Positions 2,002-32,543 of a stretch of 64,000 bases of DNA are shown one piece after another (position 1 is the stretch's first letter; each line of letters begins with the position of its first letter). The DNA is taken from contig BLSF01000009.1 in NCBI GenBank assembly GCA_012862575.1, positions 434,001 through 498,000 of the forward strand, in the 5' to 3' direction. The stretch is from Parietichytrium sp. I65-24A. Its lineage: Eukaryota; Sar; Bigyra; Thraustochytrida; Thraustochytriidae. The notes under the pieces are model-generated. The model was not told the DNA's origin and searched no databases. It saw nothing but the letters and a program-made list of their open reading frames with translations. A program made the translations under genes and the position numbers.

Positions 2002-4125
2002 ATGATGCATCAGCAGCAGCAGAATGTCAAATTGCAGGTGGAGCCGGCAAATTTGCTGACCGAGCGCAAGCCTGGCACCCCGACAAAGCGCCAGAGCGGG
2101 AACGCGAACTGGGGAGAGGAGAATCAGACCGCTGCAGGGAATCTCATGCCATCATTGGCCGCAAGCAAGCCACAGAAACGCTCCAACGGAATTCTTGCAA
2201 GTAAAGTAGACAAAAAGACCTCCGGCTCACGCGCGTCTTCCAAACTCAGCGTCAAGAACGAAATTTATTCCGAGGCCAAGAACGGGGACAAGGCTCTCGA
2301 GACTGCCCATAAAAGCGCGTGCCCACTCGGCACTTGTATTCCAACATGTCGCGATGAATTGCACCCGGTCCAGCTTCCAAAGAAACTTCAAAAGCGTCTT
2401 GAGGATTTGCAGGTCACCCATCACGCAACTCGCGAGAAGCTCGAACAGAAGGAGGCCACTGCTGCCGTCCGCAGGCAGGCTCGCTTGGACGATCTTGTAG
2501 AAAAGCAGCGTGGGCACTCCAAGCATGTACAGGAGCTTAAGACTGCGAAGACCACGACTTCTCGCTTTGAGAGTGTTCCTGAATATTTGCCAACTAACCT
2601 CAAAAAGCGGCTCGAGAACTATCGCGTTCCAACACCTGGCACAATTCTTCGCAACGAAAAGATCGTTGCGGGGCGCAGGGAACTCATCGTGGAGGCCAAG
2701 TCTCAGGCAGCCAAGACCCACCTTGCTCACGTCAAGCAGATTCAGCAGACAAAGTCTGAGTTTAGCTCCAATGAGATTGATTTCAGCGGCGCTGCAACCA
2801 AGATTCAGCTCCCAAAGCGGTTGTCCAAACGGCTCGATTCTCTCAAGCCAAAGTGGACCAAGGCCAGTATCCTCAAGAAGGAATCTTCTGCACAGAAGAA
2901 GCGCCAGCAGATGCTTCAAGCTGCTGTCAAGAAGGCTCGCGCACACACCAAAATTGTCTCGGATCGCGCTGCAGCGAAGGGAATGCAAGCGCGATTTGAG
3001 GAGGAGTCTTTGCCAACCTTCCTTCCAGCCAACTTGAAGGCCCGCTTGGCTCAGTTCAAGCGCCCAACCGTCGAGACCATTATGCGCAAGGAAAAGCAAG
3101 CCGCTTTGCGCAAGGCTCTGCATGACCAAACCACCGTGTTCAACGCCAAGTGGCAATCTCACAAAGTCTCTGCCGTGTCCGAGTTGAAAAAGTCTTTTGC
3201 AGACAACATGATTCTACGCACGTCCAACGTCTTTGCGGAGGAGAAGCCCATCGAGCTCCCAGCTCGCTTGCAGGAGCGCCTTAAGGAGATCAATTCCAAG
3301 AAGAAGCAGGCTAGCGCCATTCTCGAAAAGGAGGACAACGCTGCAACTGTTCGCGCAAACAAGCTGGAAGGCGTGGTGGCCATCTGCTCTGAACATAATG
3401 GCAAAGTTGACAAGCTTCGCACTGCCAAGCTATTTGAGCCACGATTCAGCAATAATGCTCCACAGTCGTTTCTCCCAGAGTCCCTTAAGGACCGCCTTGC
3501 CACCATCAAGAGGCGGACACCAGACGCGATCATGCGTAAGAACGAACTCGCTTTCCAGCGCGCCAAACTTCACGCCATGTCAAAGGGGAGCCTCGCGCAC
3601 CAGCACAACCAGTCTGTCTCTTCCGCACAGAGCCTCAAGCAGCAGATGGTCTCTAACGGCATTGACCTGGTGAGCGCACCCCCAACGGCTGTCGCCCTGC
3701 CAAAGCGTTTGCAGAAGCGCGCAGAAGCGCTCAAGCCATCGTGGACCCCCGAGTCGATCGCAGAAAAGATGAAAATGGCCACCGAGTGCCGCAGCCAAAT
3801 TTTGACTGCGCGCTCCGAGCGAGCGAAGGTTCACAGTTCTCTGAAAATCTCCAAGGGTGACAAGGAGCCCTCTTTCGTCGCCCGCTACGATGAGCCAGCT
3901 GAGTTTCTGCCAAAGCGCCTCAAGGAGAACTTGAGCGGGGTGACCCGCCGAACGCCTGATGCAATCTTGCGTCGATTGGAGGAGGCCACTAAGCGGCGAG
4001 ATGCAAAAGTCGAGGAAATCAAACAGAGAGCACAGAACCAAATTGCTCGTATTGACCAAGCCAAGACAAGGAAAGCATCTCTTCCCGTGACCGACAGCGA
4101 TGTGAACGTCAGTCTCTCGGAGTAA
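2002..4125 (+). CDS. Unknown protein of eight alternating ~73-residue repeats
   Basis: This 707-residue intronless protein belongs to no family I recognise. After a low-complexity N-terminus (residues 1-122, with a short Gln run), eight repeats begin at residues 123, 195, 268, 340, 417, 490, 565 and 635. They alternate between two types. Type A opens with a form of LPKRLQKRL. Type B opens with Y/F-LP-x2-L-K-x-R-L and is usually followed by TP-x-A-I-M/L-R. A-repeats 1, 3, 5 and 7 end in an RF or RY motif just before the next LP. Each repeat continues as a charged, probably helical Lys/Arg/Glu-rich segment. The A+B pair recurs every 145-149 residues. The protein is very basic. A structural or cytoskeleton/nucleic-acid-binding role is only a guess. 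The ATG at 2002 is followed at once by a second ATG at 2005. Confidence 0.85.
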   Translation: MMHQQQQNVKLQVEPANLLTERKPGTPTKRQSGNANWGEENQTAAGNLMPSLAASKPQKRSNGILASKVDKKTSGSRASSKLSVKNEIYSEAKNGDKALETAHKSACPLGTCIPTCRDELHPVQLPKKLQKRLEDLQVTHHATREKLEQKEATAAVRRQARLDDLVEKQRGHSKHVQELKTAKTTTSRFESVPEYLPTNLKKRLENYRVPTPGTILRNEKIVAGRRELIVEAKSQAAKTHLAHVKQIQQTKSEFSSNEIDFSGAATKIQLPKRLSKRLDSLKPKWTKASILKKESSAQKKRQQMLQAAVKKARAHTKIVSDRAAAKGMQARFEEESLPTFLPANLKARLAQFKRPTVETIMRKEKQAALRKALHDQTTVFNAKWQSHKVSAVSELKKSFADNMILRTSNVFAEEKPIELPARLQERLKEINSKKKQASAILEKEDNAATVRANKLEGVVAICSEHNGKVDKLRTAKLFEPRFSNNAPQSFLPESLKDRLATIKRRTPDAIMRKNELAFQRAKLHAMSKGSLAHQHNQSVSSAQSLKQQMVSNGIDLVSAPPTAVALPKRLQKRAEALKPSWTPESIAEKMKMATECRSQILTARSERAKVHSSLKISKGDKEPSFVARYDEPAEFLPKRLKENLSGVTRRTPDAILRRLEEATKRRDAKVEEIKQRAQNQIARIDQAKTRKASLPVTDSDVNVSLSE

Positions 4126-4931
4126 AAGCTTACGCGCACCGTTCTTAGAAGGGTACAGATGTAGCTTGATGTTCCCCCCTTCGTGTCTTCAACCTGAAGT
4201 ACCTCACAACCCGTCGAATCACCCCTACCCCAGCCTATCGTCTGAAATGATGTGTCTTTGAGGATAAATACACTTGCAAATATAGAGTTCACCAGCAGCA
4301 GTCAGGGAGGTGGATGCTCGTGCGAAGAATGCAAGCTTTAGCAAATTATACGATTGGGAGAATGCTTGGGCTTTTGCTGATTCGAAGCATGGGTATGTGC
4401 TTCCTGCCAACGCCCTTCTTTATGAAGTCGAGGTTCGCTGGCCAATTTACACAAATCAAACGACCGAGAAAACGAGATGCGCAACAGAAAAAGAAAAAAA
4501 AAAAAAAAAGAATCTCGAGAACAATTCAAGGGAGGAACCCGAGCGCACAGTTCCTTCTCACCAAAGATAAAAAATTACATATATGCTGAGGCGGCTTAGC
4601 TGATGCAAATGAGCAAAGCTGATTGCTTGCAAATTTTGTGAAGCTAGCCACTTTCTGCAAGAAATATCATTCTCATCCAAAATATAATTTACATTTACAA
4701 CGACCCGGCCCAGTCTCCTTCTTTCCCTGACCGTTACATCGCACCAGCTCATGCCATTTGTTATCTGTTGAAATGTCACAAGTGACCTGTATAGGCCTTT
4801 GCGAACTTGAAGAAGCAAAAGAAAACTGTTTGGGATTGGAAAATGGGAAAAGAAGAGGGCAATTGTGTAGTGCAACTCTACGTACACACCAGATTGGTCA
4901 GAAGAGAAAACTGAAGACATATCAACACTAC
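4126..4931. other. Convergent intergenic region with poly(A) run
   Basis: This is the 3' space between the repeat-protein gene and the convergent carbamoyl-phosphate synthetase gene. It contains a run of about 16 A at 4494-4509. Short open frames on both strands look random. I see no gene. Confidence 0.6.
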
Positions 4932-12923: not shown

Positions 12924-14897
12924 ATGGCCCCGCTACTTGTGCGCGCCGCAAGGTTCTTGGCGCCTCACACCGTCAAGGGTCGAACTTTCGCTACCAAGGT
13001 GCAAAGCGCGTTCGGGTCGCAAGCAGAAAAGTTTGTGGAAAAGTACCAGGCGAACAAGTCGCCTGCTTTCGCGGTAATCAAAGTTGGCGGAGATGTGGTC
13101 GAGTACGAGCTCGAGCAGCTTGCGGAGACTTGCAAGGCTCTACAGGATTTGAACTTGTCTTCGGTGGTCATCCATGGAGGTGGTCCACAGATGAACGACG
13201 AGCTCAAGAGACAGGGCGTCGAGCCAACATACATCCGCGGCTCTCGCGTCACTGACGCTCCGACTCTTGCAATTGCAGAGCGCATCTTCAAAGAGCTCAA
13301 CGGCCGTGTCGTGGACGCCTTCACAAAGGCGGGCATCAAAAGCAAGGGTCTCTCCAGCGGCATCTTCCAGGCCGAGATTGAGCAACCAGAGATGGGCTTC
13401 GTCGGGGACGTCAAAGAAGTCAACGCCGGGCCAGTCCTTGAAGCTCTTTCGAACGGCCAAGTTCCAGTCCTTACGTCTTTGGGCTTTTCGAAAGAAGGCC
13501 AAACCCTCAATGTCAATGCCGACGTGGCTGCAAAGGAACTCGTGCTCAAGCTGCAACCTATGCGCGTGCTATTTGCATCTTCCAAGAATGGTTGGGTCGA
13601 CGATGATACTAAAAAAATTGTGCCTTTGATTGAGATGGAGAAAGACTACTTGCGTCTCGCTTCGTTGGACTACACCGGCCGCCAAGGAACGCTTCTCAAA
13701 CTGAACGAGATCAAGGTAATTCTAGATGGCATCCCCAAATCTAGCTCTGTGACCATCTGTGGCGCTTCTGATATGCTCAAAGCGCTGTTCACAGAAGAGG
13801 GTTCGGGCACCCTCTTGTGCGAGAGCAAGTCCGCCCTTGGCTCTGGATCGCCTGCTGTCCACGTCGCCCCTAAAAAGGACGAGAAGCTAAACGTGGGCCT
13901 CCTTGGTGCACGTGGCTTCGTAGGCGGAGAGTTCATGGAGTTGCTGTGCCGTCACCCAAATATGAAGCTCACAGTCGCGAGCTCTCGCGCGCTCGCCGGC
14001 CAAAAGGTGCAGGACGTGTTCAAGCTTAGCGACGAGAAGGCCGCTACGGCGCTTGCCCCTGGTGTCGAGTTCCGCGCTGTCGAGCCGGATGACTTCGCCA
14101 CCGACGAGGCCTCGCAAGATGTGGACGTGTGGGTCCTCGCACTCCCGAACGGCCTAGCTCCCCGCTTTGTCGAGAAGCTCGATAAACTCAAGAAGAGGTC
14201 CGTGATGATCGATCTTGGAGCTGACTACCGCTTTGATAGTTCTTGGGTGTACGGACTCCCTGAGCGCCATGGTGCCCGCGAAACACTTCGTGGTGCGACC
14301 CGCATCTCCAACCCAGGCTGCTATGCGACTGGCCTTCAGACTGCTCTCATGCCAATCTTGCAACCTATGAAAGACTCCCCACTCGCCCTCAAGCAAGGAA
14401 CCGTTCCTGCAACTTTTGGCATCTCTGGGTACTCCGGCGCTGGAACGACCCCTTCGGACAAGAACGACCCAAAGATGCTCAAAGACAACATCCTCCCGTA
14501 CTCTCTTGTTAATCATATGCACGAGCGCGAGTGTACCCGCCACTTGGGAATGCAAGTTGCTTTTATGCCTCATGTAGCTCAGTGGTTCCAAGGTATTCAC
14601 CTCACAACCACTTGCTACCTTGCCAACCCAGTCAGCGCTGAGACTGTATTGGCAGAGTTCGAGCGATACTATGCAGGCGAGAATCTCGTCAGGGTTTCTG
14701 CGGCAGCCCCAACCGTCCAGTCCAACATGTACAAACACCACGTCTCGGTTGGCGGCTTCACCGTTGATCCAAAAACTGGTCGACTGGTCATCATCTCTAC
14801 CATCGACAACTTGTTGAAGGGCGCTGCATCTCAGGCTATGCAAAACCTCAACATTGCGCTCGGCTTTGAGGAGTTCAAATCCATTCCTATGGAGTAG
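12924..14897 (+). CDS. ARG5,6: Fused N-acetylglutamate kinase / N-acetyl-gamma-glutamyl-phosphate reductase, mitochondrial
   Basis: This 657-residue bifunctional protein catalyses steps 2 and 3 of arginine (ornithine) synthesis. Residues 1-30 (Ala/Arg/Lys-rich, no acids before E35) look like a mitochondrial presequence. The kinase (about 45-302) has KVGGDVV at 53-59, VVIHGGGPQM at 81-90 and the NVNADVAAKE substrate/nucleotide region near 196-205. The reductase (about 322-657) has a Rossmann start GLLGARGFVGGE and catalytic C466 in SNPGCYATG. Only about 18 residues link the two. Fungal ARG5,6 proteins carry an additional ~150-residue acetyltransferase-like (DUF619) domain between the modules, and that is absent here. 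Fungal precursors are cleaved into two enzymes in the matrix; whether this one is cannot be read from sequence. Confidence 0.95.
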   Translation: MAPLLVRAARFLAPHTVKGRTFATKVQSAFGSQAEKFVEKYQANKSPAFAVIKVGGDVVEYELEQLAETCKALQDLNLSSVVIHGGGPQMNDELKRQGVEPTYIRGSRVTDAPTLAIAERIFKELNGRVVDAFTKAGIKSKGLSSGIFQAEIEQPEMGFVGDVKEVNAGPVLEALSNGQVPVLTSLGFSKEGQTLNVNADVAAKELVLKLQPMRVLFASSKNGWVDDDTKKIVPLIEMEKDYLRLASLDYTGRQGTLLKLNEIKVILDGIPKSSSVTICGASDMLKALFTEEGSGTLLCESKSALGSGSPAVHVAPKKDEKLNVGLLGARGFVGGEFMELLCRHPNMKLTVASSRALAGQKVQDVFKLSDEKAATALAPGVEFRAVEPDDFATDEASQDVDVWVLALPNGLAPRFVEKLDKLKKRSVMIDLGADYRFDSSWVYGLPERHGARETLRGATRISNPGCYATGLQTALMPILQPMKDSPLALKQGTVPATFGISGYSGAGTTPSDKNDPKMLKDNILPYSLVNHMHERECTRHLGMQVAFMPHVAQWFQGIHLTTTCYLANPVSAETVLAEFERYYAGENLVRVSAAAPTVQSNMYKHHVSVGGFTVDPKTGRLVIISTIDNLLKGAASQAMQNLNIALGFEEFKSIPME

Positions 14898-28926: not shown

Positions 28927-31900
28927 CTACTCAACATGCCTGCGACCTTTTCGGCTTTGTTCCTCTTGTGCAACATCTTCGCTCGCAGTGTTCTCGGCCA
29001 CGTCAGACTCATAGTCATCTTCTTCATCTACGCCGCTTGGCCAGCAGACCACAAGTAGAATGAGAGCCCCCATGAGAGCATATAATCCACGGCTGTAGAG
29101 CTTGTACGTATTGACATACTCCTGGTACTCCGACAAATACAAAAATCGGTTTCGCCGGTCAATCGGGAGCTCGAATTGTGAGGGCAGCGGATACAGGGCT
29201 TCCTGAAAGTCCGAATAAGCTCGTAAAACTTCATCTCTAGGATTGTGCATGTTGTCGTTGACGCAGATAAACTTTGGTTTCCTGGCGCGTATAGAATCCA
29301 GTCGTGATGTTGACTCTGCCAAGTTGTCTGTAATCATTTCAAAAGCAATTGGATACTTGTCGTCGCGTTCGGCGAAGATTGTGCTCCCCCCGCGTTTTGG
29401 AAGATGTTGGCGTATCGCTGCGCGTGTCATATTGCATGCGAAGATCTCTTGCTCACTGAAAAGAAATGTCTTCCCATTCCTGGGCTTAACTTGCTCCCCA
29501 CTTTCACGCTTGCGGCCCTCATGGCCTTGCAAGCAGTCTATCAAAGCAATGAGCTTAGACATAACCGTCTCAGGGTTCGCCCCAGTACCAGCTTCCATGG
29601 CTGCCAGAGTGCGGAGCTCATTTAGTGATATAGAACCGTCTCTGTTTGTGTCTAATTCTTCACGGAAAAACTTTTCTGGGGACATACTGGGCTCCTCGGA
29701 GGTATGTACGAGCCAGTACATGTATGAGAAGGCAAATTGAAAATCATTAGCAGCTCGGAAGCGATGGCTCGAGGTCACGTCGAATTCATTGGGAAACGCA
29801 TCGTGCAGTTTCTCAAGCTCACCCAATTGGATGAAATGAGGCATGTGAGCGATAACCTTTCTCTCGGCTTTTCCAAAGCGCTTGTGAAATGCTTTGTTCA
29901 CCTCAAGCAAGGAACTTCCAAAAGCATCCAACAGATCACGCCGGTTCGTTTGGCTCACGTTTTGAGCTCCAGCCTCGTCATGGGTCCTCCCAGGGTCAAC
30001 ATTGTCGTAAAGGGTACCCGATCTGAGAGTAAGATTGGAGAGAATTTCCGTTTCGTTCAAACTCCTGTGGAAGCTATTAACCGCCTGCGTAAAGCTAGAG
30101 CGAAATTCCGCCAATTTTTCGGCTTGCAAGGCCTTTAGCTCTTTCCGTCTTCTTTCGAGTCGGCGTCTTCTGCTCTCCGAGTTTGCGACCGAAATTTCTC
30201 TCTTTGAGACATCTTGAGCAAGCGTCCGTTGATGGCTCTGCCCGATAAAATTTGAGGGAATCTCAAGTGCAGCAGTCAAACTTAGTTGGATCCAGCTGCC
30301 GTTGCTCAATTCTATCTCAACGTCCACAGTTTCTGGCTCTTTGCTACTAGGAATCTCACTCCATTCCCACGTTTCCAGAGGCTGGACGTTCTTTATACAA
30401 GAAACCTCGTATGTCACGGAGGTTTGAGGTGTGATGCCAGCCCGGAGCTGGTAGGTTGTCTTGGTGTTCGCAAAGCGATTCGATTGTGTAACTCCTCCAC
30501 ATTGGCTTCCCCGGACAATACAAATTGCTTGTGCTTCTTCTAGTGTATTGAAGGACTCGCAGAGAGTATCCTTCGGGCAGCCAGGCAAGTAGGTGTCTTC
30601 AATGCAAGTCCAATTTGCTTTTGCGGCTTTAACGTAATCGGATAACGGCGGGCCACCCCATTGTATATACTCCTGCTCGTGGCCCATCGGATTGCCAAAA
30701 ACAAGACTCAAGAATTGCAACGCGGAGTTGAAGCTAGCTCGGATGATGATTCTGGGGTCCCGCACCTTTACGCTTGCCACCGAAGCATCAATGCTAGTTG
30801 TCACGTCAGATATATTAAAACCAACCGCTCTGGACCCGAACGGCAGGAACACGCTACGAACATTTTCACGCCGCTCTGGAAAAACGCAATCTTGGCCAAG
30901 CTTGCTTGAGCACTCCGCCGTCGAAGCAAGGTGCACATAGGGATACTCTGAGCTCGGCAGGCCATCTCGATTGATGCAGTCCCCGCCATCGAAGCCACAT
31001 TGAGGATTGTTGCAGTCGCGGTCGCAATACAGGTCGGTTAGGTATCGAACGATGCACTTGCCGTTGCAATCTGGGAATACCGCATCCTGGCCCTGATCAG
31101 AGTCAAAGCCTCTATCATATTCACCAGACGGCTCCCGATCTTTTTTATCATGCCGGTCACCAGCACAGTCACCCAAGTCGAAATCGCATTCCGTCACATT
31201 ACAAGCAGAGTCGCAGAAGCCATCGCCAAGCCATGTCGACACGCAGCCCTCAATGCACGAAGGTAGATGCCAAGCGAGGTATATCTTCTGCCCTGCTTGA
31301 GGACTGTAAAAATCGGAAGGCCACGTTTTTCTTCCAAGCATCACGTCATCGTTGAAGTATATAAAGTGTTCCGAAAGACCATCAATGCGGTGAATGTTTG
31401 CTTCGATTGCCGGTGAGCTAAAGGTAGGGAGGTGCGACAAGTTCGCAAAAATTTCTGTGTGGGGGACTAAGCGAATGCGGTCGTTCGTGAGATCCAGCCA
31501 AGATGGGATTTGATCGTCTGTGACGATGAAAATTTTCCGTACCCAAGGAGCGTATTTTTCGATGGAGCGAAGCGAGTACCTAAGCTCACTGCTATCACGA
31601 TACCTGTTTTCAGTGCGCGATTCATCTCCTACCTGCGCATTTCCACCAGTGTCCTCATCCTCATCCTCTTCGTCATCGTTGTTGTCATCAGGCTCCGCCT
31701 CCTTCTCGTCCTCGATCTCGAGCTCTTTGTATGAGTCTGCCTCATAGTGCTCCAGATCCTCGCTGTCAAAGCTGAGCTCGTCGGGTGAACCTCGACCTGT
31801 AGAGTACACGCTACCATCCGGTGAGTCTCCTGCCAAGTCCGCACGAAGATTTCTTTCGGCCGACTCGTACCTTTGCTTGACGAGGCCAATCTCCTGATCC

Positions 31901-32442
31901 AAGTCTTCATTTAATTCGCTAGGCCAGCCTCCTTCGCTATCCTCATTAAATTTCTGCAGCTCGGCATCCAACTTTTCCAGTTCCTCGCGAAGCGTTCTCA
32001 ATTTGTTGATAGTGGACGCGTTCATGAAAGTATTGCCAGAATCGAGTCCAAAATTTACCTCACTGTCGCCGTCACCGTCACCGTCGGTCGAAGGTGCTCG
32101 CTCTTTTGCCGCCTCAAACGTCTGGCTCAGATATATTTGCCGTTTCGCGAGCCAGACAGGGTCAGACCCGTTCACCCAAGTATAGACGACATCGACAGGG
32201 GGTACACAGTGAAGCTCCGGGAATGGCCGCCCAGCGATATTGTCGACTGAGTCCTGAAGCTGACACGCGTGTGTGGCCACAGACGATCGAGGCAGGTACT
32301 TTAGCGCAAGTAGCGTCACGAAAGCAAAAACCTGCAGCACAGCCACAGACACACAGCAGAGTGTTTTCTCTCTGCTGGAAGGTCTATTGACAGCGTCCAG
32401 CGCAAGCTTCTCAATCGCCTTCGCGACATTTCTGAAGCTCAT
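28927..32442 (-). CDS. GNPTAB: GNPTAB-like stealth-family N-acetylglucosamine-1-phosphotransferase with Notch repeats
   Basis: This 1171-residue Golgi membrane protein starts MSFRNVAKAIEKL; the frame upstream lacks an ATG. An N-terminal signal-anchor (about 27-48) is followed by stealth region CR1 (VDVVYTWVNGSDPVW), a ~180-residue acidic spacer, and CR2 (SSELRYSLRSIEKYAPWVRKI, HFIYFNDDVMLG). Two Lin-12/Notch repeats follow (CVSTWLGDGFCDSACN and its partner beginning CIVRYLTDLYCDRDC). CR3 is near DVTSSHRFRAANDFQFAFSY, then an EF-hand (DTNRDGSISLNEL), CR4, and a C-terminal membrane span (LYALMGALILLVVCWP). This is the full animal GNPTAB order. The animal enzyme tags lysosomal hydrolases with GlcNAc-1-phosphate to make mannose-6-phosphate. 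The activity is inferred here and the acceptor is unknown. Confidence 0.92.
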   Translation of the reverse strand: MSFRNVAKAIEKLALDAVNRPSSREKTLCCVSVAVLQVFAFVTLLALKYLPRSSVATHACQLQDSVDNIAGRPFPELHCVPPVDVVYTWVNGSDPVWLAKRQIYLSQTFEAAKERAPSTDGDGDGDSEVNFGLDSGNTFMNASTINKLRTLREELEKLDAELQKFNEDSEGGWPSELNEDLDQEIGLVKQRYESAERNLRADLAGDSPDGSVYSTGRGSPDELSFDSEDLEHYEADSYKELEIEDEKEAEPDDNNDDEEDEDEDTGGNAQVGDESRTENRYRDSSELRYSLRSIEKYAPWVRKIFIVTDDQIPSWLDLTNDRIRLVPHTEIFANLSHLPTFSSPAIEANIHRIDGLSEHFIYFNDDVMLGRKTWPSDFYSPQAGQKIYLAWHLPSCIEGCVSTWLGDGFCDSACNVTECDFDLGDCAGDRHDKKDREPSGEYDRGFDSDQGQDAVFPDCNGKCIVRYLTDLYCDRDCNNPQCGFDGGDCINRDGLPSSEYPYVHLASTAECSSKLGQDCVFPERRENVRSVFLPFGSRAVGFNISDVTTSIDASVASVKVRDPRIIIRASFNSALQFLSLVFGNPMGHEQEYIQWGGPPLSDYVKAAKANWTCIEDTYLPGCPKDTLCESFNTLEEAQAICIVRGSQCGGVTQSNRFANTKTTYQLRAGITPQTSVTYEVSCIKNVQPLETWEWSEIPSSKEPETVDVEIELSNGSWIQLSLTAALEIPSNFIGQSHQRTLAQDVSKREISVANSESRRRRLERRRKELKALQAEKLAEFRSSFTQAVNSFHRSLNETEILSNLTLRSGTLYDNVDPGRTHDEAGAQNVSQTNRRDLLDAFGSSLLEVNKAFHKRFGKAERKVIAHMPHFIQLGELEKLHDAFPNEFDVTSSHRFRAANDFQFAFSYMYWLVHTSEEPSMSPEKFFREELDTNRDGSISLNELRTLAAMEAGTGANPETVMSKLIALIDCLQGHEGRKRESGEQVKPRNGKTFLFSEQEIFACNMTRAAIRQHLPKRGGSTIFAERDDKYPIAFEMITDNLAESTSRLDSIRARKPKFICVNDNMHNPRDEVLRAYSDFQEALYPLPSQFELPIDRRNRFLYLSEYQEYVNTYKLYSRGLYALMGALILLVVCWPSGVDEEDDYESDVAENTASEDVAQEEQSRKGRRHVE

Positions 32443-32543
32443 CGTGCGCACCTTCGCTCGCACCTTCGCTCAGCGACTGCGCCAATGATAGATCTGAGTT
32501 CTGTTGTTCTGAATTCTGAATTCTGGAGAGATACAATCCACCA

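Follow-up and report, generated by a model that had tools for sequence, protein, structure and literature searches.

The window analysed here, 64,000 nucleotides of contig BLSF01000009.1 of the thraustochytrid Parietichytrium sp. I65-24A (C9:434001-498000 of a 42.5-Mb genome in 172 contigs), carries close to its left end an open reading frame (ORF), 2002-4125, which starts with ATG, stops with TAA at 4123-4125 and encodes what we call the window protein. Judged by its sequence, this is a tandem helical repeat protein that is stathmin-like and not a stathmin. Its eight repeats, of two alternating types termed A and B, are laid out as follows:

2002-4125, plus strand: whole ORF of the eight-repeat protein, 707 amino acids (aa), a single open frame; 36-40% identity to three relatives
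2365-2577, plus strand: repeat A1, residues 122-192; best Pfam match Stathmin, E 0.00025, below the family cut-off
2578-2799, plus strand: repeat B1, residues 193-266
2800-3012, plus strand: repeat A2, residues 267-337
3013-3246, plus strand: repeat B2, residues 338-415
3247-3462, plus strand: repeat A3, residues 416-487
3463-3687, plus strand: repeat B3, residues 488-562
3688-3897, plus strand: repeat A4, residues 563-632
3898-4104, plus strand: repeat B4, residues 633-701; end of the array, where the relatives have five further repeats

A sequence-only reading of this DNA had proposed four tandem A/B dimers of one repeat, and the repeat starts that it gave agree with ours, the LP motif at the head of each repeat (residues 125, 196, 270, 341, 419, 491, 566 and 636) falling 1-2 residues inside them. 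The repeat period is 70-78 residues (about 73), with LP-to-LP spacings of 145, 149 and 147 residues from A to A and of 145, 150 and 145 from B to B. The consensus is LPKRLQKRL..L....TaEsILEKEAaAA.RR...L.eRVakAr.HSaKV....AK.TeARFE for A and FLPeRLKkRLasfRRPTpEAILRKE..AA.RR...LEAKv..A..H...V..V.ALKkSF..N for B. That the repeat profile recovers eight copies in the gene is true by construction, since the same eight are rows of the profile. Strict alternation of the two types, likewise proposed from the sequence, was confirmed: the alternating labeling, together with its mirror, ranked best of 70 by alignment score, with a mean score of 78.5 within a class and 36.7 between classes. Mean identity was 34.4% for A-A pairs and 31.3% for B-B pairs, compared with 28.8% for A-B pairs, and the strict alternation supports descent from a duplicated A-B pair. 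No tandem repeat was seen at the DNA level inside the gene, which argues that the repeats are old.

The nearest relatives found, P0001, P0002 and P0003, carry 14 repeats each in the order B(AB)6A; four dimers is therefore the right number for the window protein but not for its relatives, and the four A/B pairs look like a shortened form of a longer array. Five database relatives were obtained at E values up to 10, the named one, which is among these three, being a hypothetical protein of Hondaea fermentalgiana, a thraustochytrid. In each of P0001, P0002 and P0003 alternation was the best of 3432 labelings by score, with small differences between within-class and between-class identity (31.2 v. 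27.2, 28.6 v. 27.5 and 35.0 v. 33.6%; gaps of 4.0, 1.0 and 1.5 points, respectively). When repeats were compared across proteins, the best-scoring partner belonged to the same class in 66 of 66 cases. Repeats 1-8 of the window protein correspond by position to repeats 2-9 of the relatives: the exact positional partner was picked in 19/24 comparisons and the correct class in 24/24, and among the three relatives themselves the figures were 30/42 and 42/42. Since positional partners outscore repeats of one and the same protein (mean 125.8 over 66 pairs versus 55.4 over 301 pairs), these lineages probably inherited a finished array from before their divergence and have probably not homogenised it afterwards. 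The window gene is without the first repeat of its relatives, having a low-confidence stretch instead, and without their last five. A search for decayed remnants with the repeat profile, in six frames of the 2001 bases upstream (1-2001) and the 806 bases downstream (4126-4931), gave nothing above noise (best E 1.3).

Within the array, the two kinds of joint differ sharply. An AlphaFold2 model built from four sequences (mean predicted local distance difference test score, pLDDT, 64; predicted template modelling score, pTM, 0.20; 388 of 707 residues at pLDDT 70-90) predicts, with modest confidence, long helices of 37-56 residues and a strand-helix-strand element at 4/4 A-to-B joints (E, strand; H, helix; residue numbers):

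2554-2631, plus strand: A1-to-B1 joint, predicted strand (RF motif), LP helix and strand; E185-187, H198-206, E208-210
2983-3066, plus strand: A2-to-B2 joint, predicted strand-helix-strand; E328-330, H343-350, E353-355
3433-3516, plus strand: A3-to-B3 joint, predicted strand-helix-strand; E478-480, H493-501, E503-505
3874-3951, plus strand: A4-to-B4 joint, predicted strand-helix-strand; E625-627, H638-645, E648-650

At all three B-to-A joints (residues 257-270, 401-416 and 554-564) pLDDT is below 50. A joint motif of the form [RKG][FY], the RF motif, is found at 21 of 22 A-to-B joints and at 0 of 24 B-to-A joints, counts that are descriptive because the motif was chosen after inspecting the junctions; at the single A-to-B joint that misses it, the motif sits upstream of an insertion. 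Because the joints differ in this way, the A-B pair is the unit of the array as far as sequence can define one and, with modest confidence, by predicted structure too. The make-up that had been proposed for each repeat, a long helix preceded by a short LP helix, is predicted by the model too, both forming one helix in A1. The proposed rod was borne out in part: the A-B stretches are helical, but the joints between pairs, with pLDDT below 50, behave in the model as disordered linkers, so that four A-B rods on a string seem to describe the protein better than a single rod does.

Two further sets of proteins contain related helices. A 1039-aa ORF on contig C10 of the same genome (C10:632652-635768; L005:1153-4272) carries 20 tandem stathmin-like repeats, spaced by 47 (12 times), 51 (6) or 49 (1) residues. 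The long-helix consensus is common to this C10 protein and the window protein, and the C10 repeats align nearly without gaps to the long helix (hhalign 93.6%); the C10 protein differs in having no LP helix, in its 47-51-residue spacing and in its 20 repeats. In its second half the spacings run 51, 47, 51, 47, 51, 47, 51, 49, 51, which comes close to an alternation in its own right. The second set, P0004-P0011, comprises database proteins of 634-886 aa from the sources jgi, lgn and ena, with a eukprot label on none among the matches listed. The window protein matched P0004 and P0005 in phmmer at E 3.8e-6 and 1.4e-4, and LP helix and long helix are common to the repeats of both families (hhalign 97.8%, the 68 columns covering the whole repeat). 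The profile for this set (A8) was built from P0004, P0008 and P0011, which yielded 25 repeats, 24 of them used, with P0005-P0007, P0009 and P0010 not included. Unlike those of the window protein, these repeats lie 74-96 residues apart, and 173-181 at the N terminus (in the three proteins cut), and the linkers between them are of GWG and FSV type; the proteins end in CaaX-like tails; the model of P0004, which is weaker than that of the window protein (mean pLDDT 55, pTM 0.18), is a low-confidence one without strands.

A third gene with some likeness, of TCP11 type (PF05794; L003, C30:463612-463791, minus strand), shares with the window gene the IEDKLRAAETRR motif and the equal best Stathmin score in the genome, but has a TCP11 domain and no array that we could see; its hhalign values were 7.8% to the window repeat family and 48% to the C10 repeats. 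The N-terminal helix of this gene carries the shared KLxxAExRR motif. The window protein itself gave no match to the TCP11 domain (PF05794) up to E 10.

As the sequence-only reading had stated, the protein has no recognised family: neither the whole protein nor its single repeats matched anything above any curated cut-off. For the whole protein, a search for a known family in Pfam, NCBIfam and PDB gave DUF5783 (E 0.041) as its best Pfam match. Viral relatives were also considered and set aside: two scans of viral contigs gave 96 and 25 matches to the pattern, none of which was confirmed. Among the titles and abstract openings listed, we found no paper naming this repeat family or a protist stathmin, subscription literature being thinly covered. 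The passages considered from PMC12221091, PMC3789837, PMC12302650, PMC6251626 and PMC6398456 do not treat the window protein, and those of the last, on a haptophyte, mention stathmin merely as an example.

Below the family cut-offs, one name recurred. The sequence-only reading had offered stathmin as its closest analogy and then put it aside with the words that the motif is not stathmin; this dismissal went too far, as stathmin tops the PDB profile search and, among Pfam families, matches A1 best, in all cases below the family cut-off, and the comparison is the best lead. Profile searches of PDB covered 177,635 sequences. With a profile (labelled A3, like one of the repeats) of 41 of the 50 repeats from four proteins, 3 of P0002 and 6 of P0003 being left out, the top two matches were stathmin-4 R1 constructs at E 0.0016 and 0.002, followed by PDCD5 at 0.066. 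The first 22 repeat rows put stathmin on top at E 0.026, whereas the same rows reversed gave no stathmin and a best E of 0.8. After addition of 18 of the 20 C10 repeats (profile A11, which omits the first and the last), stathmin again ranked first and 21 of the 26 sequences listed were stathmins, two of them at E 0.0017-0.0022 and the other 19 at 2.9-9.4. In Pfam, Stathmin (PF00836) was the top family for repeat A1 (21.5 bits) and the sole family matching more than one of 41 repeats (2/41), all below the cut-off; other repeats have other weak best matches, for example Lact-deh-memb at E 0.0035. The same family matched 0/22 reversed repeats and 4/20 C10 repeats (best E 0.0079). Of three candidate places scored in the genome, repeat A1 came out on top with 18.8 bits, tied with the TCP11-type gene, and in 14 control genomes the Stathmin model found nothing. 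When aligned by hhalign to a two-sequence stathmin profile, the repeats reached a score that was equalled by 0/150 column shuffles and 0/86 reversed rotations. Finally, a vertebrate stathmin model, made from 90 of 120 fetched sequences (130-200 aa) plus two and compared with 20 shuffles per protein, gave 7.1 bits v. 4.9 for the best shuffle with the window protein, 8.0 v. 2.5 with P0001 and 1.4 v. -0.1 with P0003.

What is alike is the residue order of the long helix, S/T-x-E-x-I-x-x-K-x-x-x-A-x-x-R-R, found in the stathmin family (PF00836; stathmin-4 constructs, PDB 4f6r and 9f07), and the tandem arrangement of helical repeats; in several of the comparisons the likeness exceeds that of the reversed and shuffled controls. 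We read the resemblance in residue order as real, and as due either to descent or to convergence.

Several observations weigh against a link to stathmin. The match of A1 stays under the Pfam cut-off (21.5 v. 24.7 bits) and is absent for the whole proteins of all four members. The two top PDB constructs are, judged by their sequences, fusions in which the beginning of stathmin repeat 1 runs into the final part of repeat 2, and the remaining stathmin-4 chains follow at E 4.3-5.2 with the 41-repeat profile. The hhalign probability to stathmin is 5%, and 14% for the C10 repeats, and a C10 profile by itself retrieves no stathmin from PDB. With the 24 P0004-P0011 repeats profiled, PDB yielded no stathmin and Pfam Stathmin matched 0/24. 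All scores with the vertebrate model are 8 bits or less: P0003 reaches just the 1.4 bits given above, P0002 lies under its best shuffle (0.9 v. 2.9), and 5/8 of P0004-P0011 fail to beat theirs (3/8 do). Convergence is, moreover, easy among charged helices. The whole C10 protein likewise has no Pfam Stathmin match.

The architecture differs as well. Stathmin has tandem repeats about 51 residues apart within one helix; the window protein has a spacing of 70-78 residues and an LP helix between long helices, which break in the model. A stathmin-like domain includes an N-terminal capping part, and A1 covers only positions 79-134 of the 136 in the profile, leaving that part unmatched. The window protein is also the more basic, with an isoelectric point (pI) of 10.2 as against 8.4 for P0018, the single stathmin isoform for which it was calculated. 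On these sequence comparisons, membership in the stathmin family (PF00836) fails. As an observation on stathmins themselves, several fish proteins named stathmin 1b or stathmin-like (P0034, P0043, P0045 and others) are 240-241 aa long, compared with 149 aa in human.

The way in which the long helix is conserved may point to a partner. Conservation along it has a period of 3.64 residues (3.62-3.66 by row bootstrap; 0/2000 column permutations as strong), and the conserved stripe bears the charged residues K, E, RR and H. Since this period is that of a straight helix (about 3.6), the charged stripe is more likely a putative face lying along a partner than a heptad core. Hydrophobicity, which speaks against such a face, is weakly periodic with a peak at 3.52 (power 2.2), as in heptads. 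The conservation period is 3.52-3.58 in the C10 repeats and 3.56-3.62 in P0004-type repeats, and the long helix may still form a coiled coil, more so in these two sets.

The reading that we favour, and hold tentatively, is that of a stathmin-like multi-tubulin binder or microtubule-associated rod. Stathmin binds two curved tubulin dimers, and because the long helix resembles the stathmin helix, tubulin would be the most likely partner; binding in the manner of stathmin, argued by analogy, is itself possible rather than probable. The long helix would bind along tubulin through its conserved charged stripe, one repeat (about 8 nm if extended) would span one alpha/beta-tubulin dimer and an A-B pair two, and the flexible B-to-A linkers would allow as many as eight dimers to be held one after another, with the number of repeats setting its tubulin capacity. 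Either curved tubulin would be kept, as by stathmin, or the protein would be laid along the microtubule. The basic character noted from the sequence was borne out by the computed pI, and as so strong a charge fits the acidic microtubule surface, binding to the lattice would be at least as likely as sequestration.

The main rivals to tubulin binding are an unrelated partner and a membrane-linked scaffold. As to the first, the protein might be a generic basic helical repeat protein, its likeness to stathmin a convergence of charged helices and its partner nucleic acid, the ribosome or another filament. This is a serious contender, only slightly behind the reading that we favour: the stathmin scores are weak and direction-dependent, the next PDB match, PDCD5, is helical too, and no fold match of the model in Foldseek is significant (best E 1.3), but the signal is lost in controls that destroy residue order, shuffled or reversed, and the Stathmin model ranks the window gene first among the places scored in the genome. 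As to the second, a helical string could space or bundle cytoskeletal elements at the cortex or membrane, with no tubulin along the helix and with some distant relatives lipid-anchored. Here the repeat shared with P0004-P0011 counts in favour, as do the Cys-X-X-X C-termini of 8/8 of these proteins, CaaX-like ends that we take to resemble a lipid anchor, and the pI of 10.2-10.4 in the four members computed. We nonetheless consider a scaffold unlikely, the CaaX-like tail being absent from the window protein as well as from P0001, P0002 and P0003, and anchoring being suggested by the motif. A flagellar microtubule-inner or axonemal lattice protein of 8- or 16-nm periodicity, unrelated to stathmin, seems improbable to us. 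In its favour, an extended repeat would measure about 8 nm (estimated from some 45 + 10 residues in helix, 0.15 nm each) and axonemal doublet entries make up 5 of the 7 fold matches listed; the fold matches are all at E 1.3 or worse, and no axonemal doublet protein of solved structure is among the sequence matches.

If the arrays do bind tubulin as we favour, they would be natural multi-dimer binders whose copy number varies among species, and would lend themselves readily to testing how protofilament length is set by such helices. Stathmin is regarded as an animal protein, and tubulin-binding arrays would point to an origin of its helix before animals. The widest form of this idea, which we put forward as speculative and rather unlikely, is that thraustochytrid-type protists have a superfamily of stathmin-type tubulin-binding helix arrays of 8, 14 and 20 copies, in which the number of repeats sets that of the dimers held in a row and A/B pairs mark two-dimer units, the helix predating animals, where stathmin keeps two copies. 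Should the arrays not bind tubulin, they would still form an old, unnamed repeat family with a clear history of pairwise duplication.

Ahead of the array, the N-terminal part of the gene comprises two further stretches:

2050-2124, plus strand: conserved N-terminal block NLLTERKPGTPTKR...GEEN; RKPGTPTK and GEEN invariant in 4/4 sequences
2125-2364, plus strand: low-confidence stretch, where by alignment the 14-repeat relatives carry their first, B-type repeat

In the AlphaFold2 model pLDDT is below 50 at residues 1-84 and 93-122, and the TPxK/R motif within the conserved block resembles a cyclin-dependent kinase site. Upstream, a GA/GT-rich simple-repeat stretch at 1557-1990 reaches nearly to the start codon. 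The gene is single-copy as far as searched: at E 0.001 the sole match in its own genome was the ORF itself, and no second copy was found with the window protein, P0001 or P0004 as query, P0001 giving one additional weak match (C21:112325-112585, E 0.037).

The window holds 15 further ORFs of at least 330 aa, 10 of which were scanned; four had no Pfam family and six did (carbamoyl-phosphate synthase, kinase/semialdehyde dehydrogenase, ubiquitin hydrolase, Stealth/LNR, PP2C and choline kinase). The scanned neighbours offer no clue to the function of the repeat protein. Two of them are of some interest in themselves. A single ORF at 12924-14897 fuses amino acid kinase and semialdehyde dehydrogenase domains, and at 28927-32463 the minus strand encodes a protein of 1178 aa in which the set of four Stealth regions is complete and is joined by two LNR (Notch-type) repeats; we take this protein to resemble GlcNAc-phosphotransferase alpha/beta.
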